8,852 nucleotides of DNA from Amphritea sp. (GTDB lineage: Bacteria; Pseudomonadota; Gammaproteobacteria; Pseudomonadales; Nitrincolaceae): contig JAIBDA010000049.1 of the NCBI GenBank assembly GCA_024679635.1, forward strand, positions 1 to 8,852, given 5' to 3'. Both the position numbers and the translations under genes were made by a program. Positions 1 to 8,583 of the stretch are shown piece after piece. A model generated the notes under the pieces. The model was not told the origin of the DNA, searched no databases, and saw only the letters and a program-made list of their open reading frames with translations. Within the stretch, counting starts at the first letter, position 1; each line of letters begins with the position of its first letter.

Positions 1-459
1 CTGGCTTCTGCGGTTGCAGGTTATTTTTGGGACCTTTGGGGTAATCGTCGTCCGCGCTTTATTATCGTTGAACCGGAACAGGCAAACTGTTTGCAGCTGA
101 GCGCAAAAGCAGGTGAGCCGGTGGTAGTCGAAGGCGACCTGGACACGTTGATGGCAGGCTTGGCATGCGGTGAAGTGTCTGCACTAGGTTGGCAGATTTT
201 GTCCAATGGCGCCGACGACTTCATGACGTTGAGCGAAGAAGCCGTTGCCGACACCATGCGCCTTCTAGCCAAAGGTTACGGCAGCGATCCAGCTATCGAA
301 GCCGGTGAATCCGCAGTACCAGGACTAGCTGCAGCGGTTATTGCCCGTGAGCAAGAGCCCTTTGCTAAAGCCCTGAACCTGGATGCGCAGAGTAAAGTAT
401 TGGTAATCGGTACTGAAGGCGCAACCGATCCAGAGCTTTATCAACAGTTGGTAAACTGA
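1..459 (+). CDS. dpaL: Diaminopropionate ammonia-lyase, C-terminal part (5' truncated by window edge)
   Basis: The frame is open from the first base, so 152 C-terminal residues of a protein usually near 400 residues are visible; the PLP lysine and glycine-rich phosphate loop lie outside. Family enzymes (E. coli YgeX/DpaL, fold type II PLP) cleave 2,3-diaminopropionate, either enantiomer, to pyruvate and two ammonia in the cytoplasm. Family-like stretches are PRFIIVEPEQANC, GDLDTLMAGLACGE and, near the end, IGTEGATDP. Two cysteines, codons 88-90 and 166-168, are 26 residues apart, the same spacing as the disulfide pair Cys265/Cys291 that I recall for the E. coli enzyme. A terminator follows and the next gene is convergent, so this gene ends its own transcript. 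It may still serve the catabolic block to its right, since a diamino-acid lyase fits there. Other PLP eliminases such as threonine dehydratase fit less well. Confidence 0.87.
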   Translation: MASAVAGYFWDLWGNRRPRFIIVEPEQANCLQLSAKAGEPVVVEGDLDTLMAGLACGEVSALGWQILSNGADDFMTLSEEAVADTMRLLAKGYGSDPAIEAGESAVPGLAAAVIAREQEPFAKALNLDAQSKVLVIGTEGATDPELYQQLVN

Positions 460-495
460 AACTCACACAATCAATAAGCGCTCTATCAAATAAAT

Positions 496-523
496 AAAAA
501 GCCTCGCTAGTGCGAGGCTTTTT
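496..523. terminator. Bidirectional rho-independent terminator between convergent genes
   Basis: A perfect 7-bp GC-rich stem (501-507 GCCTCGC with 512-518 GCGAGGC, loop TAGT) is flanked by five A on the left (496-500) and five T on the right (519-523), which extend the stem to 12 bp. Read rightward it has a T-tract and ends the lyase transcript. Read leftward the A-run becomes a T-tract and can end the regulator transcript. It lies 37 bp after the lyase stop and 30 bp beyond the regulator stop, as expected for a shared terminator. Confidence 0.9.
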
Positions 524-552
524 ATTATCCAGTGATCAAGCGCAGGCTGTGT

Positions 553-1044
553 TCAACTTTCTTCCAGAACAACCGGCACCGAAAGCCCCGTCTTAACGGA
601 ATCCATCACAACGTTGGTTTGAAAATTACGTATATTCAGGTTGTCAAAGAAGACCTCACGGGTAAAAACCTCATAGTCTTCCATATCCTTAGCCGTCACC
701 ACCAAAATAAAGTCTGCACTGCCAGTAACGTAATAGCATTGTTGTACAGAAGGGTTAATTTTCATTGCCTTTTTGAATGTATCAAGCAAATCTAAGCGCT
801 CTCTTTCAAGGGTTACCTGCACTATCAAGGTGACACCCCGCCCCACCGCTTTAGGATTCACAACAGCAATATCCGACTGAATAACATTCTGCTCACGCAT
901 ACGTTTCATTCGCCGCTGCACAGCGGCAGGAGATAAGCCAACCTGTTCGGCTATCTGATCTGAAGTGACGCGGTTAGATTGCTGGATAATCTCCAGGATC
1001 TTGCAATCAAAACTATCGATGCTTGCTGATTGAGAGCTACTCAT
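553..1044 (-). CDS. Lrp/AsnC family transcriptional regulator
   Basis: This is a 163-residue cytoplasmic DNA-binding regulator of typical Lrp/AsnC length. An N-terminal winged helix-turn-helix covers about residues 8-60, with recognition segment VGLSPAAVQRRMKRM at 35-49. A C-terminal RAM (ligand-binding) domain covers about 66-150, with the family pattern YYVTGSADF at 104-112 and the late NIRNFQTNVVMDSVK segment. I chose the ATG at 1044 because AGGTGA (1053-1058 on this strand) stands 8 bases upstream. A GTG at 1056 in frame would add four residues but overlaps that site. The gene is divergent from the catabolic block and convergent with the lyase gene, so it probably controls one or both, with an amino acid or pathway intermediate as effector. 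Lrp/AsnC proteins (DoeX) are known in ectoine catabolic clusters, where diaminobutyrate derivatives act as inducers. The effector here is not shown by sequence. Confidence 0.92.
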   Translation of the reverse strand: MSSSQSASIDSFDCKILEIIQQSNRVTSDQIAEQVGLSPAAVQRRMKRMREQNVIQSDIAVVNPKAVGRGVTLIVQVTLERERLDLLDTFKKAMKINPSVQQCYYVTGSADFILVVTAKDMEDYEVFTREVFFDNLNIRNFQTNVVMDSVKTGLSVPVVLEES

Positions 1045-1291
1045 AAAGCGTTTCACCTATACCCATCAAAGTTACCGCTAAGAATAATCGTTTCTATCTG
1101 TGAGAAGTACTATGAGCACGAAAATATATAGTGTTTTTATGCATTTTTTAATCAACTTCGCGGCAGACCATCATCAAACAATGGCAATTACATGAATTAC
1201 CGCACCCCAACCCCGTAATATTGATAATAGCTTATTCACCATCTCAACAATAAAAATAGCTCAGGATATAAAGCCCGAGCAACGAGACACG
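1045..1291. promoter_or_regulatory. Divergent intergenic control region between the regulator and the catabolic block
   Basis: No gene was found in these 247 bases. The stretch 1119-1155 is very AT-rich, with an AAAATATATA run, a five-T run and a six-T run, the sort of sequence Lrp-type proteins and promoters use. On the minus strand, TTGATT (1150-1155) lies upstream of a TATATA element, but the spacer of about 19 bases is long, so this is only a candidate regulator promoter. On the plus strand GATAAT (1223-1228) is a -10-like hexamer without a good -35. A six-base palindrome AGTACT (1106-1111) does not extend convincingly. Position between divergent transcripts is the main argument for regulation; no operator is identified. 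Confidence 0.5.
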
Positions 1292-2080
1292 ATGATGAAA
1301 TTGACCACTGTTACACATCAGCAGCCTTTGGAATATCTGGCCCCTGCCGGTCGTATCGGCGTGATATCCCTGGCCACGGACTTCAATATCGAAGCTGACC
1401 TGCTGCGAATGTATCCCGATGATGTGCAATTTTTCACCAGCCGGGTGAGGAATGTAAATCCGCTGACAATTGAGAATCTTCGCAGCATGGAACCAGGCAT
1501 CAGCGCGGCGGCCGATACCATTCTGCCGGGCACCGATCTCGATGCCATCATTTATGCCTGTACTTCCGGCACGATTGCTATTGGCGTAGAACGCATTACC
1601 GAATTAGTCCACCAAACGCGCCCGGGAGTTCCAGTCACTAACCCTGTAACCGCAGCGCTATCTGCTTTTCAACGATCCGAAGCCAAGCGAATATCGATTC
1701 TGACTCCTTATACCGAAGCCGTGAACCGTGAGGTCGCCGAATTTTTTAGCGCCCAGGGCTATGAAGTCTTGAGTATTGCCGGATTCGGCTTCGAAGATGA
1801 TACCGCGATGACATATATCACTCCTCAAGATATTGCTGATGCTGCGGTTGCCAGTTGTGATCCTGAAGCCGACCTGATGTTTATCTCCTGTACCGCCCTA
1901 CGGGCATCGTCAGTGCTTGATGATATTGAGCAACGCTTGAATATCCCGGTTGTTAGCAGCAACCAGGCATTAGTGTGGCATAGCTTGCAGCTGGTGAACT
2001 ACCCCAGCCCCGTATCGGGTTTTGGCGCATTACTGCGCGAACAGTTAAGCCGCAACGCTGCCTCACCTGTAAAACAATAA
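1292..2080 (+). CDS. EutA-like protein of the Asp/Glu racemase, maleate isomerase and arylmalonate decarboxylase superfamily
   Basis: This is a 262-residue soluble cytoplasmic protein. Both cysteine positions of the cofactor-independent racemase/isomerase fold are present: Cys90 in YACTSGTIAIG and Cys200 in SCTALR. Two catalytic cysteines suggest a racemase or isomerase rather than an arylmalonate decarboxylase, which keeps one. The segments NPLTIENLRSMEP, LPGTDLDAI, ILTPYTE and VVSSNQALVWH resemble the ectoine-utilisation protein EutA as I remember that family. Known relatives invert a carbon centre or isomerise maleate; the role of EutA is thought to involve (hydroxy)ectoine breakdown together with EutB and EutC, which are not seen here. 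Two adjacent ATGs (1292, 1295) compete, with only a weak GAG at 1284-1286 upstream. It is the first gene of the block, 17 bp before the M20 gene, so the two are almost certainly co-transcribed. The true substrate is unknown. Confidence 0.85.
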   Translation: MMKLTTVTHQQPLEYLAPAGRIGVISLATDFNIEADLLRMYPDDVQFFTSRVRNVNPLTIENLRSMEPGISAAADTILPGTDLDAIIYACTSGTIAIGVERITELVHQTRPGVPVTNPVTAALSAFQRSEAKRISILTPYTEAVNREVAEFFSAQGYEVLSIAGFGFEDDTAMTYITPQDIADAAVASCDPEADLMFISCTALRASSVLDDIEQRLNIPVVSSNQALVWHSLQLVNYPSPVSGFGALLREQLSRNAASPVKQ

Positions 2081-2097
2081 GAGTTGGAGATTAAATA

Positions 2098-3258
2098 ATG
2101 TCTTTAGACCCACAATTGATTGCCCAGATGACCGAATGGCGTCGTCACATGCATCGTTTTCCCGAATGTGGATTTGATTTACCACTGACCGCCGATTTCA
2201 TTGCCGATAAGCTTGAAAGCTTTGGCATCGAGGTAACCCGTAATATTGGTCAACAAGGTGTCGTAGGGATTTTACGTTGCGGTGATGGAGACGCCAGCAT
2301 TGGTTTGCGAGCAGACATGGATGCGCTGTTTATCCATGAAGAAAATGGCTTTGAACATCGCTCCCGTCACGACGGAAAAATGCACGCCTGTGGCCATGAT
2401 GGTCATTCCGCGATGCTGCTCGGGGCCGCCAGTTATTTAGCCCAGAGCAAGGGTTTCAATGGCACCGTACATTTTATTTTCCAGCCAGATGAAGAACATG
2501 GTCAAGGCGCGCAAGCCATGATTGATGATGGTTTGTTCGAGCGCTTTAAGATCGATGCTGTCTACGGCTTACACAACATGCCGGGCCTGCCCGAAGGCAA
2601 CTTTACTGTTCGGCCGGGTTCATTGATGGCCAGTGAAAGTAGCTTCGAGATCGTTATCAACGGCATCGGTGGTCATGCCGCCATGCCACATCGCGGGGTG
2701 GACCCCATCGTGGTTGGCTCGCAGATTATTTTAGCGTTGCAAACCATCGTATCCCGTAACTTGAGTGCCATTGAAGAAACAGCGGTGGTCTCAGCTACGG
2801 AGTTTATAACCAATGGTACGGTGAATGTAATTCCGTCCCAAGTAACTATCAAAGGCGATTGCCGCTGCTTCACGGAAGACAGTCTAGCTAAGATTGAGCA
2901 GAGCATGGAACGCATCGTGGCTGGCATTTGTCAGGCCGCCGGCGCGCAGTACCAATTTACCTTTGTGAATACTTTTTATCCCACAGTGAACAGTCCGGTA
3001 CAGACCGAATTCGCGATCCAGGCGGCTATAACCGTACTGGGGAGCGACAATGTCGAGGCGAACTGTTTGCCCCTCACTATTTCAGAAGATTTTTCCAGCA
3101 TGCTACGTGTAAAACCTGGCTGCTATGCACTCCTGGGTAACGGTGTTGAATCGATTGGCGGCTGTGCTCTGCACAACCCCGAATACGACTTCAACGATCG
3201 TATCCTTGGACATGGCGCGCAGTACTGGGTGCAGTTGGTATGTGATCAATTGAAATAA
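2098..3258 (+). CDS. M20D family amidohydrolase (N-acyl amino acid deacylase-like)
   Basis: This 386-residue zinc-dependent amidase is of normal family length. The M20D signatures are all in place: RRHMHRFPECGF (15-26), HACGHDGHSAMLLG (96-109, ligands Cys98 and His100), QPDEE (129-133, with the acidic pair Glu132/Glu133), LHN (His159), GGHAAMPH in the lid domain (191-198) and ALHNPEYDFND near the end (His359). Family members remove acyl groups from N-acyl amino acids (hippurate, N-acetyl amino acids, auxin conjugates). There is no signal peptide, so it acts in the cytoplasm. The start is well supported by GGAG (2086-2089) 8 bases before the ATG. Placed between an EutA-like gene and a TeaA-like transporter, it is a candidate replacement for the DoeB/EutE deacetylase, which belongs to a different (aspartoacylase-like) family. 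I recall M20 proteins being named DoeB2 in some ectoine clusters, but I cannot check similarity here. Confidence 0.9.
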   Translation: MSLDPQLIAQMTEWRRHMHRFPECGFDLPLTADFIADKLESFGIEVTRNIGQQGVVGILRCGDGDASIGLRADMDALFIHEENGFEHRSRHDGKMHACGHDGHSAMLLGAASYLAQSKGFNGTVHFIFQPDEEHGQGAQAMIDDGLFERFKIDAVYGLHNMPGLPEGNFTVRPGSLMASESSFEIVINGIGGHAAMPHRGVDPIVVGSQIILALQTIVSRNLSAIEETAVVSATEFITNGTVNVIPSQVTIKGDCRCFTEDSLAKIEQSMERIVAGICQAAGAQYQFTFVNTFYPTVNSPVQTEFAIQAAITVLGSDNVEANCLPLTISEDFSSMLRVKPGCYALLGNGVESIGGCALHNPEYDFNDRILGHGAQYWVQLVCDQLK

Positions 3259-3306
3259 TTTTTAAATAAAACCTTAACTCTAAAAATAAAATTTGAGGAA
3301 TACTCC

Positions 3307-4341
3307 ATGAAAAAATTATTAACCGCTTTGCTTGCAATAGGTATCAGCTTCGGTGTTAGCGCCGAAACCTGGAAGTTCGCTTCTGAAGAAGACAAGCAGG
3401 ACGTACAAGACATCTTTGCCCAGACCTTTGCCGAGACCATTAAGAAAGAATCCGACGGTGATATTCGCGTTAAAGTCTATTATTACGGCCAGCTGGGCAC
3501 CGAGAATGACATTGTAGAGCTGACTGCTAAAGGAACCGTTCAGTTCGTTTCTGTTGGTACAGGTCACCTGGGCTCTTATGTACCTGAAGTACAGGCACTC
3601 AGCGTACCCTATGTGATGGGCACCGATACTGAGGTAGTACGCAAGGTATTGACCGGCAGCAAGACCATATACAACGATCTGGCCGATCGTTTCGAAAGCG
3701 TAAACCTAAAGCTATTAACTATGATTTCTGAAGGCGAGATGGTTTGGGGTGCAAATAAGGCAATTCGCAGCCCTGAGGATTTTGCCGGTCAGAAGATTCG
3801 TACCTTCACCTCAACGATTCCTGTTGAAACCTATAAAGCATTTGGCGCCACACCAACACCTCTGTCCTGGGGCGAAGTATACGGCGCATTGCAGCTTAAA
3901 ACTGTCGACGGCATGGTTAACCCTATCTACTTTGTTTACAACGCTAAGTGGCACGAAGTTCAGGACTACCTGATGTTCCCTGGTCAGCAGCCTTACGTCG
4001 GTACGATCTCTACCAATAGTCAGTGGTTCAATGGACTGTCTGCGGAAAAACAGAAAATGGTGCACAAGGCGATCGCCGCTGCAGAACAGGCAGCCCATGA
4101 TTACCAGCTACGCATCAACCAGGAGAACATGGACAAAATAATGGCGGAGCGTCCAAACATGCAGGTAGTCACCCTGAATGCGGAAGAACGTGCACGCTTT
4201 AAAAAGCTAAGCCTAACTCTGCACGAGACTTACTATGATGTTGTCGAGAACGCCTATGACAATACAGAAAAAGTTGTTGCACGGAAGAACGCTAAAAACA
4301 TTTTGGAAAGCCTGATCCAAGAAGTTAAGGACGCCTCTTAA
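3307..4341 (+). CDS. TRAP transporter solute-binding protein, TeaA/UehA-like (DctP family)
   Basis: This 344-residue periplasmic protein captures the solute for a sodium-driven TRAP transporter. A clear signal peptide (Lys2-Lys3, hydrophobic 4-18, cleavage after VSA at 19) leaves a mature chain starting ETWKF. DctP family features include KIRTFTS with the carboxylate-clamping Arg165 and ETYKAFGATPTPLSWGEVYGAL (about 174-195), nearly the same as in the ectoine-binding TeaA of Halomonas as I recall it. By that remembered alignment the ectoine contacts Glu9, Arg144, Trp167 and Asn184 are kept (here Glu28, Arg165, Trp188, Asn205), while Phe66, Trp188 and Phe209 become His87, Phe209 and Tyr230. 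The solute is therefore probably a small zwitterionic carboxylate close to ectoine but perhaps not ectoine itself. GAGGAA (3295-3300) is a strong ribosome site, fitting the high expression of binding proteins. The membrane subunits follow after a hairpin. Confidence 0.92.
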   Translation: MKKLLTALLAIGISFGVSAETWKFASEEDKQDVQDIFAQTFAETIKKESDGDIRVKVYYYGQLGTENDIVELTAKGTVQFVSVGTGHLGSYVPEVQALSVPYVMGTDTEVVRKVLTGSKTIYNDLADRFESVNLKLLTMISEGEMVWGANKAIRSPEDFAGQKIRTFTSTIPVETYKAFGATPTPLSWGEVYGALQLKTVDGMVNPIYFVYNAKWHEVQDYLMFPGQQPYVGTISTNSQWFNGLSAEKQKMVHKAIAAAEQAAHDYQLRINQENMDKIMAERPNMQVVTLNAEERARFKKLSLTLHETYYDVVENAYDNTEKVVARKNAKNILESLIQEVKDAS

Positions 4342-4356
4342 TAATCGGTTGATTAT

Positions 4357-4403
4357 CAGAAAGCGTGCGGCTGGGACTGATTAGCCGAACATCACGCTTT
4401 CTG
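4357..4403 (+). promoter_or_regulatory. Intra-operon stem-loop between binding-protein and membrane-subunit genes
   Basis: A perfect 11-bp inverted repeat (CAGAAAGCGTG at 4357-4367, CACGCTTTCTG at 4393-4403) encloses a second 5-bp stem (CGGCT 4368-4372, AGCCG 4383-4387) with a 10-base loop and a 5-base bulge. It starts 15 bp after the binding-protein stop and is followed by GAGTTTTA, only a short T-run. Such structures after periplasmic binding-protein genes commonly protect the upstream mRNA or partly terminate transcription, so that far more binding protein than permease is made. That role is inferred from structure and position. The weak T-tract argues against complete termination, since the transporter genes lie immediately downstream. 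Confidence 0.75.
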
Positions 4404-4459
4404 AGTTTTAACCTGACAAAAAGCCACTATCAATAGCATGGCTATTAAGGTGTGTTCTT

Positions 4460-4975
4460 ATGAAAAATATCTTTCACAACATCAGTAGCGTCACTGAATC
4501 GATAGAGAAATTTATCGTGTGTTTTTCAATTCTACTGATAATGGTCAACTCTACCGCCAACGCTATAGGGCGATACGCTTTTGGTAAGAGCTTATTCTTT
4601 TCCGAAGAGCTCAATCAGTTTTTGATCGTGGCAGTCACCTTCATTGGTTTCGCCTATGCCGTGCGAAAAGGCCGCAACATACGCATGACGGCGGTATACG
4701 ACTCTTTAGGCTATACGGCCAAGAAAGTAATCACGACGTTAATTTCTATTACCACTAGCCTGTTGATGTTCTACCTGGCCTATAAAGCAGTGTTTTATGT
4801 CATTGAAATAAAAGAGCTCAACCGCTTAAGTCCGGCACTACAGTTCCCGGTCTACATTATCTATTCCATTATCCCGGTGGGACTGAGTATCGCCGGGCTG
4901 CAATACCTGATCGCCTTCTTTATGAATATTACCCATAAAGAGATCTACCTATCGCACGAAGTAATTAATAACTAA
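4460..4975 (+). CDS. TRAP transporter small permease subunit (DctQ family)
   Basis: This 171-residue inner-membrane protein has the four-helix arrangement of DctQ subunits: hydrophobic segments near residues 17-36, 52-69, 90-114 and 130-155. Family marks are the NAIGRYAFGKSLFFSEELNQF region (34-54), with the Arg-Tyr and Glu-Glu pairs, and RKGRNIRM (69-76) after the second helix. It pairs with the large subunit to form the membrane part of the sodium-driven importer fed by the upstream binding protein. AAGGTG (4447-4452) lies 7 bases before the ATG. The large subunit gene begins 25 bp after its stop. DctQ proteins diverge fast, so identification rests on topology, the short motifs and gene order, which agree. 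Confidence 0.93.
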   Translation: MKNIFHNISSVTESIEKFIVCFSILLIMVNSTANAIGRYAFGKSLFFSEELNQFLIVAVTFIGFAYAVRKGRNIRMTAVYDSLGYTAKKVITTLISITTSLLMFYLAYKAVFYVIEIKELNRLSPALQFPVYIIYSIIPVGLSIAGLQYLIAFFMNITHKEIYLSHEVINN

Positions 4976-5000
4976 TCGATATGATTGCCGGTGGAATATT

Positions 5001-6347
5001 ATGAGTTCTTTTATTGAGTTTTTTTCTGACATCGTAGCCGGTGAACTGGATATCTACGTTGTTACTTTTACCCTCGTCGCAGCGATGCTTATCCTGCTGT
5101 TCCTTAGCTTCCCTATGGTCGTGCCGTTAGCGGTGGGCGCACTGATCGGTCTGGTGCATTTTTCCGGCATCGATACCGGGGTAATTATTCAACAGATGGT
5201 TACTGGCATCTCACCAAACGCTCTGATCGCGGTGCCGATGTTCATACTGGCCGCAGACATAATGACCCGCGGACACACTGCACATAACCTGCTGGGGCTG
5301 ATTGAATCCTTTGTGGGACACCTGCGAGGCGGCCTGCCAATTACTGCTTGTATCAGCTGCACTTTGTTTGGTTCAGTCTCTGGTTCAACCCAGGCAACGG
5401 TCGTTTCCGTCGGCCAGATTATGCGCCCCAAACTGCTGCAGGCTGGCTATAAAGATAGTTTTGTCATGGCACTAATCATCAATGCCAGCGACATCGCTTT
5501 TTTGATTCCGCCGAGTATCGGGCTGATCCTCTACGGCACACTGGCAAATACCAGTGTTGGCGAACTATTTATCGCGGGCATCGGCCCGGGAATTTTGCTG
5601 GCTATCCTGTTCTCTGTCTATTGCTATGCTTATAGCGTTTATCAGGGCGACAGTATTGTTCTGGTGGAGAAAACCTCTAATAAGGAAAAGCTTCAGGCAA
5701 TCAAGAAAGCCCTGTTACCACTGGGCTTTCCGGCTCTGATTGTTGGCGGCATCTACTCAGGGGCAGTAACACCCACCGAAGCAGCATCATTCTCTGTGCT
5801 CTATGCGATCATCGTAGAGTGTGTGATCTACCGTGAACTTAAATACAAAGACATCATCGATGCCGCTTTAAGCACCGGCCTCATTACGGCCGTAGTATTC
5901 ATTCTTGTGGGCATCGGTCAGGCGTTCTCCTGGTATATCTCGTTTGAACAAATTCCACAGGAACTGTTAGCTCCGCTGAATCTGGAAGACGCATCTAAGG
6001 AATACATCCTGTTTGTGATCGCATTGAGCTTTTTTGTCGGTTGCATGTTTGTCGACTCATTGGTGGTCCTGGTTATCCTTACACCGATCTTCGTGCCTAT
6101 CGTCACCGCCGTTGGTCTAGACCCTGTGCTGGTTGGCGTAATGATCACCTTACAGATGGCTATCGGTTCAGCAACACCACCGTTCGGCTGCGATATTTTT
6201 ACCGCGATCGCGATCTTCAATAAGCCTTACATGGAAGTTATCAGCGGGACTTTACCGTTCATTCTGATCCTGTTCTTTATGTCGGCGTTGTTAATCTTCT
6301 TCCCGGATATTGCCCTATTGTTAAGAGACCTGGCATTTGCCGACTGA
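5001..6347 (+). CDS. TRAP transporter large permease subunit (DctM family)
   Basis: This 448-residue protein is hydrophobic almost throughout (about 11-13 membrane segments) and is the ion-coupled transport subunit of the TRAP system. Conserved DctM stretches are PNALIAVPMFILAADIM (72-88), FGSVSGSTQATVVSVGQIM (123-141), LIPPSIGLILYG (168-179), GAVTPTEAASFSVLYA (254-269) and ATPPFGCDIF (391-400). These match the repeated helix-hairpin regions that bind sodium and solute in this family. The length is typical and no break is seen. GTGGA (4991-4995) stands 5 bases before the chosen ATG. Together with the preceding two genes it makes a complete three-component importer. The M24 hydrolase gene starts 49 bp downstream, consistent with one transcript. 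Confidence 0.95.
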   Translation: MSSFIEFFSDIVAGELDIYVVTFTLVAAMLILLFLSFPMVVPLAVGALIGLVHFSGIDTGVIIQQMVTGISPNALIAVPMFILAADIMTRGHTAHNLLGLIESFVGHLRGGLPITACISCTLFGSVSGSTQATVVSVGQIMRPKLLQAGYKDSFVMALIINASDIAFLIPPSIGLILYGTLANTSVGELFIAGIGPGILLAILFSVYCYAYSVYQGDSIVLVEKTSNKEKLQAIKKALLPLGFPALIVGGIYSGAVTPTEAASFSVLYAIIVECVIYRELKYKDIIDAALSTGLITAVVFILVGIGQAFSWYISFEQIPQELLAPLNLEDASKEYILFVIALSFFVGCMFVDSLVVLVILTPIFVPIVTAVGLDPVLVGVMITLQMAIGSATPPFGCDIFTAIAIFNKPYMEVISGTLPFILILFFMSALLIFFPDIALLLRDLAFAD

Positions 6348-6376
6348 ATAGAAAGCAAAGTAACAGGCGAAAAAGA

Positions 6377-6400
6377 ATGAAAAACTGGAAAATATTATGA
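6377..6400 (+). other. Possible seven-codon leader ORF overlapping the next start
   Basis: An ATG at 6377 opens a frame of seven codons (MKNWKIL) whose TGA stop (6398-6400) overlaps the ATG of the M24 gene in an ATGA arrangement, the classic layout for translational coupling. AGGCGA (6365-6370) lies 6 bases upstream and could bind the ribosome. The M24 start itself has only a modest GGA (6387-6389). Such short frames also arise by chance in A-rich spacers, so this is a weak call. Confidence 0.2.
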
Positions 6401-7578
6401 CTGACCTACTGATGGCTCCGTTACGCGGCTTCGAAGAAAATGAATTTGAAGCGCGTACTGAAAAACTGCAACGTTTGATGGCTACTCAGCAAATCGATGC
6501 AGTATTTTTTTCTACCGAACCTGAATTCCGCTATTTCAGCGGATTCAAATCGCAGTTCTGGGAAAGCCCGACGCGTCCCTGGTTTTTGGTCGTACCTTCA
6601 AAGGGAAAACCGATAGCCGTAGTACCGGGAATCGGCGTTGCCGGTTTTGCCGAAACCTGGATCGAAGACGTGCGCAGCTGGCCGTCCCCGCGTCCTGAAG
6701 ATGACGGAGTAACGCTGTTAGCAGAGACTCTCGCCGAAGCTTCAAAAAGCTCCCGACGCATCGGGGCAATGATCGGTCCGGAAACTCACTTGCGGATGCC
6801 TGCGACAAATTACCAGACCCTACAAAATAGCTTAAGCCAGCACCAGGTGGTCGATGTTAGCGAGATTGTCCGTGATGTACGCAGTGTTAAATCTGTCGCT
6901 GAAATTGCCAAAATTCGCTTTGCTTGTGATGTGACCGCCGCCGGCTTTGACTTCCTGCTGAAGAACTTAAAAACCGGCATGACCGAGCGTGAAGCCTGCA
7001 AAGCGATGCACCTGGAAATGCTTCGTTTAGGCGCTGATGCCTGCCCTTATTTAATTTCGGCGTCAGGCCAGGGTGGTTACGACGATATCATCATGGGGCC
7101 AACCGACCGGCGTCTGAACGATGGCGATGTCCTGATTATTGATACCGGCGCAAATTTCGACGGATACTTTAGCGATTTTGACCGCAACTTCGCGTTTGGT
7201 GAGGTCGATAGAGCTACCCATGACGCCTATGAAGCAGTATATGCTTCCACCGAAGCGGGCCTGAGCATAGCAGCACCGGGGCGCACCACTGGAGATATCT
7301 GGCAAGCAATGTGGTCAGTGCTGGAAGACGCGGGCGCACTCGGCAATAGCGTTGGCCGAATGGGCCATGGTCTGGGTATGCAGCTGACAGAATGGCCATC
7401 CAACGTTGAGGGCGGTGATGTGACTCTGCAGGCAGGGATGATCATGACACTCGAACCGGGAATGACCTTTGCGCCGGGGAAAATGATGGTTCACGAAGAG
7501 AACATTCTGATTACCGAAAATGGCTGCGAGATGCTGCATAAACGCGCATGGCCAACCCTACCTGTGATTACTCGATAA
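6397..7578 (+). CDS. M24 family metallohydrolase (Xaa-Pro peptidase/creatinase fold)
   Basis: This 393-residue cytoplasmic protein has an N-terminal creatinase-like domain (about 15-155) and a C-terminal pita-bread catalytic domain (about 165-390). The five metal ligands of aminopeptidase P-type enzymes are all present: Asp249 (IIDTG), Asp260 (GYFSDFDRNF), His324 (GHGLG), Glu353 (LEPGM) and Glu367 (HEEN). The spacings Asp-Asp 11 and His-Glu 29 match E. coli aminopeptidase P. The second histidine usual in that enzyme, seven residues after the first, is Thr331 here, so a plain Xaa-Pro peptidase activity is not assured. The ectoine hydrolase DoeA/EutD shares this fold, but the DoeA signatures I remember around the metal site are not seen, so I call the family only. 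It is the last gene of the block, followed by a terminator, and probably cleaves an amide, peptide or cyclic amidine brought in by the TRAP importer. Confidence 0.9.
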   Translation: MTDLLMAPLRGFEENEFEARTEKLQRLMATQQIDAVFFSTEPEFRYFSGFKSQFWESPTRPWFLVVPSKGKPIAVVPGIGVAGFAETWIEDVRSWPSPRPEDDGVTLLAETLAEASKSSRRIGAMIGPETHLRMPATNYQTLQNSLSQHQVVDVSEIVRDVRSVKSVAEIAKIRFACDVTAAGFDFLLKNLKTGMTEREACKAMHLEMLRLGADACPYLISASGQGGYDDIIMGPTDRRLNDGDVLIIDTGANFDGYFSDFDRNFAFGEVDRATHDAYEAVYASTEAGLSIAAPGRTTGDIWQAMWSVLEDAGALGNSVGRMGHGLGMQLTEWPSNVEGGDVTLQAGMIMTLEPGMTFAPGKMMVHEENILITENGCEMLHKRAWPTLPVITR

Positions 7579-7601: not shown

Positions 7602-7630
7602 AATGGCTCTGCCTGGCAGGGCCATTTTTT
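7602..7630 (+). terminator. Rho-independent terminator of the catabolic block
   Basis: An 11-bp stem (AATGGCTCTGC 7602-7612 with GCAGGGCCATT 7616-7626, one G-T wobble, loop CTG) runs into a six-T tract (7625-7630). It begins 23 bp after the M24 stop and separates that block from the permease gene downstream, which therefore needs its own promoter. Confidence 0.9.
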
Positions 7631-7713
7631 ATTCTTGGTTGAAGCTCCGCTTTTTGATTTACCGACGACATTCAATTTTTTCCTCTTTTACGTATATTTA
7701 TTACGGGTTTCCT

Positions 7714-8583
7714 ATGGGACTTAAACAAGATCTATCCACACGTACTACGGGGATGCTGTATAGCTCGATCGGTGCGCTTCTGCTAACGCCTGATGCCCTG
7801 ATTTTGCGCTGGATATCGATTGAGCACAGCGAAGTATTACTTTGGCGGGGCGTATTCTTTTCGCTGGGCTTTGCTCTTATCGTATTGATTCGTCATCGCA
7901 CCAAGGCATTACGTGCAATCGTGGCAGCAGGATGGCCAGGATTGGTCAGCGGTTTGTTTTTCGCTATAAACACCTACTTTTATACTCAGGCATTGCAGCA
8001 AACCGGGGCGGCTGCGGCAATGATGATTATTAGTACTGCACCGGTTTTTGCAGCTGTAATTGCATGGTTTTGGCTGAAGGAACGGATTAACTTATCCGTC
8101 GGACTGACCATAGCTTTAACCTTGATCGGTATGGCAATCATTGTCAGCGATGAGGGGGGCGTAAACAGCTTGTCTGGTAACTTGATGGCAATTGGCTGTG
8201 CCATCTTTATGGCTTTGAATTTCAATTGGGCGCGTCGACATGCACCTCGAGATATCACACCTGGACTTATTTTCGGTGGATTAATGATCCTGACACTGGG
8301 CTGGCTGGAAACCGATACCGTTATGGCTCGCCCTGAAGAGATCGGAGCTATGTTTTTGTCTGTCGCGATAGCTATGCCAATAGGCTTTGTTTTATTACAA
8401 ATTGCACCTCGTTATATCAGTGCGACTGAGGTCAGCTTATTTTTATTACTAGAATCAATCGTTGCACCTTTCTGGGTATGGATAGGATTAGGTGAAGAAC
8501 CCAGCGCGGTGACGCTATTAGGCAGCACTGTCGTCGTACTGGCGCTGTTGTTCTATAGCTATCGCGTGCGTGCCCAAGGCTGA
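7714..8583 (+). CDS. EamA/DMT superfamily permease
   Basis: This 289-residue inner-membrane protein of normal length consists of two EamA repeats (about 12-145 and 154-283), with about ten hydrophobic helices. Family-typical ends of the repeats are APVFAAVIAWFWLKERI (109-125) and ESIVAPFWVWIGLGEEPS (247-264), the latter being the usual P-F-W-x-W/L and E-P pattern. DMT members mostly export amino acids, metabolites or related small molecules; substrate cannot be read from sequence. I place the start at the ATG 7714, with GGG at 7705-7707. The frame stays open further left, but its earliest ATG (7603) falls inside the terminator stem and the extra residues look non-conserved. A TATATT at 7693-7698 could be a -10 but lacks a good -35. 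It lies outside the terminated block and may or may not share its physiology, for instance by exporting excess amino acids. Confidence 0.9.
   Translation: MGLKQDLSTRTTGMLYSSIGALLLTPDALILRWISIEHSEVLLWRGVFFSLGFALIVLIRHRTKALRAIVAAGWPGLVSGLFFAINTYFYTQALQQTGAAAAMMIISTAPVFAAVIAWFWLKERINLSVGLTIALTLIGMAIIVSDEGGVNSLSGNLMAIGCAIFMALNFNWARRHAPRDITPGLIFGGLMILTLGWLETDTVMARPEEIGAMFLSVAIAMPIGFVLLQIAPRYISATEVSLFLLLESIVAPFWVWIGLGEEPSAVTLLGSTVVVLALLFYSYRVRAQG

Follow-up and report, generated by a model that had tools for sequence, protein, structure and literature searches.

A candidate ectoine-type catabolic module with a diaminopropionate ammonia-lyase and a metal-dependent M24 hydrolase in Amphritea

Which solute is imported and degraded by the gene cluster carried on an 8,852-base stretch of Amphritea sp. 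DNA (contig JAIBDA010000049.1, assembly GCA_024679635.1; the whole stretch is called the window below)? The window comprises, in this order, the 3' end of a gene for diaminopropionate ammonia-lyase (DAL) and genes for an Lrp/AsnC-type regulator, an EutA-like racemase (RAC), an M20D amidohydrolase, the TRAP transporter components DctP, DctQ, and DctM, an M24-fold hydrolase, and an EamA permease. We consider it an even chance that RAC, M24, and DAL, often accompanied by M20D, form a stand-alone catabolic module allied to (hydroxy)ectoine degradation, i.e., a route operating without EutB and EutC, whose solute would most likely be 5-hydroxyectoine or a close analogue. A preliminary description of the window, made from the sequence alone, had proposed an ectoine-type cluster with swapped enzymes; this is upheld in part, the lyase being a conserved member of the cluster.

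Recurrence and layout of the cluster

When genome contigs were scanned with an alignment of 22 racemase rows, 61 loci were obtained, in which the families were then called by tblastn (L and G numbers label the compared loci and genomes, respectively). Since all eight families recur together, and in the same order, in 28 of the 61, the arrangement is not due to chance, and an accidental linkage of the lyase was rejected because the linkage recurs. These 28 loci belong to Oceanospirillales, Vibrionaceae, Marinobacter, Zobellella, and Denitromonas. DAL alone is missing in four more loci (L002, L004, L005, and L010, with the L002 contig beginning ca. 1.1 kb ahead of RAC), and only the regulator match in L018. 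RAC, M20, and M24 are found without TRAP in L027, L030, L034, L038, and L058, and with remote TRAP matches only in L035; canonical eut loci, each with at least two of EutB–EutE, make up eight of the 61. In Aliamphritea spongicola (L048:9000-16000) the cluster is broken by several frame breaks, in RAC, M20, and DctM, reflecting decay or sequencing error.

The features of the window are as follows.

1..459, plus strand: 3' end of the DAL gene (pyridoxal phosphate (PLP) fold type II), last 152 codons, the 5' part lying beyond the window; family scans, with a full-length neighbour copy passing NF006058
493..526, listed on the minus strand: terminator-like hairpin of 15 pairs with two A/T-rich arms, located where the DAL and Lrp genes converge
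553..1056, minus strand: Lrp/AsnC-type regulator, linked in all 28 complete loci; family scans
1057..1291, no strand: putative promoter/operator region between the divergent genes, bearing a GCGG...CCGCA inverted motif that is conserved in eight sequences
1292..2080, plus strand: RAC, Asp/Glu-racemase superfamily; family profile, alignment, tree
2098..3258, plus strand: M20D amidohydrolase, DoeB2-like but under the DoeB2 cut-off, a candidate N-deacylase; family scans
3307..4341, plus strand: TRAP solute-binding protein (DctP), TeaA/UehA-like with an altered pocket; PDB sequence matches, alignment
4460..4975, plus strand: TRAP small permease DctQ; family scans
5001..6347, plus strand: TRAP large permease DctM; family scans
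6397..7578, plus strand: M24-fold hydrolase with five metal ligands, a candidate ring-opening enzyme; alignment, tree
7602..7626, plus strand: terminator-like hairpin closing the RAC-to-M24 run, between the M24 and EamA genes
7603..8583, plus strand: EamA permease, accessory, a neighbour in some loci only; family scans

All genes named in the preliminary description lie where it had placed them, and the absences it listed (an aspartoacylase-type deacetylase, EutB, EutC, and the DoeC/DoeD pair) agree with the family scans, in which EutB, EutC, EutE, DoeC, and DoeD are never the best match of any of the nine proteins of the window; EnuR, DoeC, and DoeD are not found in it. The regulator gene is indeed divergent from RAC, as described, but the arrangement on its other side needs correcting: DAL is convergent with it, with a hairpin in between, and thus lies outside the RAC-to-M24 transcript. 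The A/T-rich arms of this hairpin suggest that it may act in both directions. Between the Lrp and RAC genes (1057-1291), a TTnGCGG ... CCGCA inverted motif with ca. 40 bases between its halves is kept in eight relatives and is a possible Lrp operator. The EamA open frame begins within the second terminator-like hairpin, a later ATG (ca. 7714) being the likelier start. A scan of viral contigs and Rfam gave no lead.

Canonical genes were sought in 36 cluster genomes, with or without TRAP, that of L004 being left out. Their occurrence elsewhere in these genomes, which the preliminary description had raised, is borne out for EutD (above ca. 530 bits in 12 of the 36) and EutB (above the cut-off in five). 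EutA exceeds the TIGR02990 cut-off of 318 bits in none, and ectoine synthase is encoded in 24. Since canonical EutD is also present in those 12 genomes, the cluster does not merely replace the ectoine route there.

Links of the module with ectoine-type genes

The module-type M24 is encoded in 17 of 369 gammaproteobacterial genomes (18 loci, counting the query genome) and in 46 of the 318 alphaproteobacterial genomes sampled (47 loci covering all 46). Either DAL or RAC lies within 8 kb in 15 of the 18 gammaproteobacterial loci (both in nine) and within 5 kb in 27 of the 47 alphaproteobacterial ones (both in 16). Beyond 5 kb, no DAL or RAC occurs in 353 kb of alphaproteobacterial flank, and the 126 kb of gammaproteobacterial flank hold one of each, both from the cluster of L009 itself. 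The linkage of DAL to the block, whose absence the preliminary description would have taken as refutation, is thus conserved, in the 28 loci with eight families and, as proximity of DAL or RAC to M24, elsewhere.

A clean join to ectoine degradation genes is found in two alphaproteobacterial loci, L152 and L153, where DAL, M24, an EutA-like protein, EutD, and EutE are encoded in one run. Its genes overlap or are separated by a few bases, the exception being an extra 261-codon gene between EutD and EutE in L153. Their EutD proteins score 756 and 746 bits (cut-off 613) and their EutE proteins 559 and 558 bits (cut-off 402.7), respectively. Neither draft genome encodes EutB or EutC above the cut-off, the best scores being 145 and 149 bits for EutC (cut-off 471.65) and 230 and 239 bits for EutB (cut-off 413.35), the latter at the level of other dehydratases. 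Of the alternatives named in the preliminary description, the one that these runs strengthen most is hydroxyectoine degradation by replaced enzymes. In genome G394, where L104 and L094 share one contig, a divergent eutD-eutC-eutB group is joined to DAL-M20-M24 and EhuB in the order eutD, eutC, eutB, aminotransferase, semialdehyde-dehydrogenase-like gene, Lrp, DAL, M20, M24, EutE-like gene, and EhuB. Here eutD (503.5 bits, cut-off 613), eutC (413.6, cut-off 471.65), eutB (386.9, cut-off 413.35), and the EutE-like gene (304.7, cut-off 402.7) all stay under their cut-offs, and EhuB (239.5, cut-off 190.9) passes. In L165, M24 and an EutA-like gene lie beside EutD (607.7 bits, cut-off 613) and an aminotransferase gene; the ABC binding protein of this locus is 50% identical to an SBP_bac_8 (Pfam) protein adjoining DAL-M24 in L096 and 37% identical to its counterpart in the EutA-EutD locus L050. 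It is owing to these joins to EutD, EutE, and EhuB that hydroxyectoine or a close analogue is favoured as the solute.

At the genome level, EutD (E up to 1e-120) is found in 11 of the 17 M24-bearing and in eight of the 352 other gammaproteobacterial genomes (Fisher p 2e-12, kinship uncorrected). Split by ectoine synthase, the respective fractions are 7/9 versus 6/42 among genomes bearing it and 4/8 versus 2/310 among those lacking it, and the association of M24 with ectoine synthase (odds ratio 8.3) is weaker than that with EutD (79).

Several versions of the module have other neighbours. In Photobacterium, Vibrio, and Enterovibrio there is a second, paralogous DAL module (L063:5774-13720, L066:2750-11714, and L067:7268-14326), in which M24, a RAC paralogue, EamA, and M20 are encoded divergently from a YheO-like regulator, RidA, and another DAL; it shares M24-RAC-M20 and DAL with the window, while EamA permeases, the YheO-like regulator, and RidA replace TRAP and Lrp. 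The L063 DAL scores 565 bits with TIGR03528 and passes its cut-off of 532. In L062:7622-14169 (Zobellella) and L179:7463-12107 (an alphaproteobacterium) cystathionine beta-lyase, 69% alike in the two loci and scoring 555 bits (cut-off 500) in L062, replaces DAL beside M24 and RAC. In L174:7492-11425 and L177, module-type M24 genes stand in tandem, and the next gene encodes a GbcA-like Rieske oxygenase.

Betaine-type genes also adjoin the module, namely MttB and DMGDH-like genes with DAL-M24 in L045 and L088, a PhyH-RAC-DMGDH-like group beside an OpuAC ABC system in L095, OpuAC or choline binding proteins near L098, L100, and L033, GbcA/OYE genes near L027, L030, and L171, GbcA-like genes near L174 and L177, soxB near L058, and betB or betBA downstream in L014, L016, L021, and L023. 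Such neighbours may be a sign of islands devoted to osmolyte use, or of other solutes. The L058 record, titled Mesoflavibacter (Bacteroidota), bears proteobacterial-type sox and module genes and is likely a mislabelled or mixed assembly. PhyH-family dioxygenase genes adjoin RAC or M24 in L095:4747-5613, L097:676-1545, L098:9386-10318, and L052:11137-12141; their identity with EctD was rejected, as those of L095, L097, and L052 have no NCBIfam match at 1e-20.

Properties of the encoded proteins

The M24 protein of the window scores 114 bits with PepQ_Arch (NF040821, cut-off 630), 93.9 with DoeA_2 (cut-off 575), and 66 with EutD (TIGR02993, cut-off 613), and its best PDB matches are PepE and prolidases. 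D249, D260, H324, E353, and E367, which we take to be its metal ligands, show no variation across 19 rows, while EutD proteins replace at least D249, D260, and H324. In a tree of 26 module M24 proteins, eight EutD, and 14 other M24 proteins from 11 cluster-bearing genomes, the module rows group in a single clade (100/100) and the EutD rows in another (99/99), with two of the 14 general proteins, from L192 and L195, falling beside EutD; long-branch warnings accompany this tree and a further M24 tree, in which the bootstrap had not settled. The identity of M24 with EutD is rejected by the profile scores, metal ligands, and trees, and that with a housekeeping dipeptidase by its clade of its own. 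A grouping with general peptidases, which the preliminary description had named as an argument against its proposal, is thus not what the tree of the sampled M24 peptidases gives.

RAC scores 229.7 bits with the EutA profile TIGR02990, which is under the cut-off of 318, yet no other profile scores better, and so it is regarded as an EutA relative. Its Cys90 and Cys200 are invariant in the 22 aligned rows, and the closest match with a named source, from Amphritea, is 96% identical; the outer rows of the racemase tree are weakly resolved, with a long-branch warning. M20D was placed by family profiles: it passes TIGR01891 (316 bits, cut-off 153.75) and gives 308 bits with the DoeB2 profile NF038260, under the cut-off of 550.

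The incomplete DAL of the window scores 193.6 bits with NF006058 (cut-off 276), while its full-length orthologue in Neptunomonas (L001) passes with 510.8 bits and stays under the cut-off of TIGR03528 (344.6 versus 532); the L152 and L153 copies, with 270.9 and 269.9 bits, are slightly under the NF006058 cut-off. Among 47 aligned homologues of at least 250 residues, the incomplete copy being left out, no change is seen at the PLP lysine, at Asp189, or at a Cys, and Asp120 is kept in 40, with Ala in the remaining seven. The DAL enzymes of E. coli and Salmonella (4d9g and 5ygr) are members of the same family with the same Lys and Asp columns, presumed catalytic. Ala at the site matching Asp120 of E. 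coli DAL is seen in the DAL of the second module (L063/L066/L067) and in that of L091-L094. The gene neighbours of E. coli DAL presumably differ from those of the window DAL.

Among PDB sequences, the binding protein matches 3gyy, 3fxb, and 2vpn best, of which 3fxb is UehA and 2vpn TeaA, both with ectoine (PMC5924519, in its available text). The window protein is 38–39% identical to TeaA/UehA. Of the residues that we assume to contact the ligand in TeaA/UehA, R144, W167, and N184 are kept in all 34 cluster binding proteins and E9 in 33 of them, while F66H, M146F, and F209Y are found in 34 and T210V in 33. F66H was dropped as proof of a different ligand, since the eut-cluster protein of L046 carries H66 too, along with Y209.

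The proposed route and comparison with known systems

In the route that we favour, the TRAP system would import a zwitterionic cyclic amidine of the ectoine type, the likeliest candidate being 5-hydroxyectoine or a close analogue, and the metal-dependent M24 would open the ring of this solute to give an N-acyl diamino acid. M20D, or EutE in other versions, would remove the acyl group, RAC would set the stereochemistry, and the PLP-dependent DAL would carry out an alpha,beta-elimination to a 2-oxo acid and ammonia, with loss of water from 3-hydroxy-2,4-diaminobutyrate or, in the case of a 2,3-diaminopropionate chain, of ammonia; Lrp would sense an intermediate. Every substrate and reaction here is predicted from the sequence. 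Since the route would open 5-hydroxyectoine and eliminate water from 3-hydroxy-2,4-diaminobutyrate, an EutC-type reductase would be unneeded, as is observed.

Several findings weigh against this assignment. The clean EutD/EutE run has been seen in a single lineage, L152 and L153 being related alphaproteobacterial loci with alike flanks, EutD above ca. 530 bits is present in only 12 of the 36 cluster genomes, and the co-occurrence scans score four to five candidates per genome without correction for kinship. The module coexists with EutB above the cut-off in G001, G020, G024, G027, G032, and G301, and so it is not everywhere a substitute for EutBC. Neither DAL nor RAC accompanies M24 in 20 of the 47 alphaproteobacterial loci, and L062 and L179 carry cystathionine beta-lyase where DAL would be expected. 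Moreover, the nearest described profile of M24 is that of a dipeptidase, the window has no enzyme for 4-amino-2-oxobutanoate, the product of DAL acting on hydroxydiaminobutyrate, and the betaine-type neighbours (in L027, L045, L058, L088, L095, L098, L100, and L171) suggest that some versions serve other solutes.

The sequence alone cannot choose between hydroxyectoine and 2,3-diaminopropionate solutes. A derivative of the latter, either a five-ring cyclic amidine or N-acyl-diaminopropionate, would be opened by M24, deacylated by M20, and converted by DAL to pyruvate and two ammonia; such a cluster would be self-contained, ending at pyruvate, the DAL residues are conserved, and the L063/L066/L067 loci pair M24-RAC-M20 with RidA and a DAL that in L063 passes TIGR03528. 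However, nothing identifies such a solute, the linkage with EutD, EutE, and EhuB points to six-ring ectoines, and DAL-type enzymes accept other leaving groups, which makes it unlikely. An N-methylated or betaine-type amide, from which M24 and M20 would free a betaine-like part for demethylation by neighbouring MttB, DMGDH-like, or GbcA proteins, would account for the presence of these genes, and of OpuAC, choline-binding, or GbcA-like ones, near several module loci. It is quite unlikely, as genes of this kind are absent from the window and, within the flanks examined, from most of the 28 complete loci, the binding protein is ectoine-like, and the neighbours could be part of an osmolyte-use island; GbcA is encoded in two of the 369 gammaproteobacterial genomes, neither of them M24-bearing, a rarity owing to which its use as an osmolyte-lifestyle control was abandoned in favour of ectoine synthase. 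General scavenging of dipeptides or N-acyl amino acids, with M24 as a dipeptidase and M20D as a generic deacylase, is what the best M24 profile (archaeal PepQ, well short of its cut-off), the PepE/prolidase structures, and the breadth of the M20D family would point to, but it is very improbable given the M24 clade apart from the 14 other M24 proteins, the links with EutA-like, EutD, EutE, and EhuB proteins, and a window devoid of peptide transporters. The thiazoline (ATC) pathway, an idea only, was dropped as an analogue, the literature having yielded a single, unrelated paper.

More tentatively than the assignment of the window itself, we propose a widespread non-EutBC route of Alpha- and Gammaproteobacteria, built of a metal-dependent M24 for ring opening, M20D or EutE for deacylation, and a DAL-clade lyase for beta-elimination. 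It would consume 5-hydroxyectoine or else a new marine solute resembling ectoine, which may be an N-methylated analogue or one based on 2,3-diaminopropionate. Genomes with EutD and EutE in which DAL and M24 replace EutB and EutC make the removal of the hydroxyl of 5-hydroxyectoine directly testable. As the module M24 occurs in both classes sampled (17 of the 369 gammaproteobacterial genomes and 46 of the 318 alphaproteobacterial ones), often near DAL or RAC, surveys relying on EutD, EutB, and EutC alone could overlook many possible consumers of these solutes.

The gene set is widespread and apparently undescribed: no description of the combination was found in the open literature searched, subscription papers and preprints lying outside the search, and the available text of PMC13188858 has no mention of ammonia-lyase, diaminopropionate, M24, or M20. 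The methylotroph doeBDAC cluster encodes an ectoine route, with DoeB 22% and DoeA 42% identical to their Halomonas counterparts (PMC7192451); unlike for the window, no DAL, EutA, or TRAP is described for it in the part of that paper available. With the canonical eut/doe profiles, the window gives 66 of 613 bits for EutD/DoeA and 229.7 of 318 for EutA, with no EutE/DoeB, EutB, or EutC. The conversion of 5-hydroxyectoine into ectoine by EutABC is itself a proposed, undemonstrated route, according to the accessible sections of PMC5924519. As presented there, the eutABCDE clusters of Ruegeria pomeroyi and Sinorhizobium meliloti, accompanied by UehABC or EhuABCD, differ from the window, whose M24 bears metal ligands and lies outside the EutD clade, which has DAL in the place of EutB and no EutC, and in which M20D stands for the aspartoacylase EutE. 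What they share with it is an EutA-like racemase, a TeaA/UehA-type TRAP system, the M24 fold, an N-deacylase, a PLP fold-II lyase, and an Lrp/AsnC regulator (PMC5924519).

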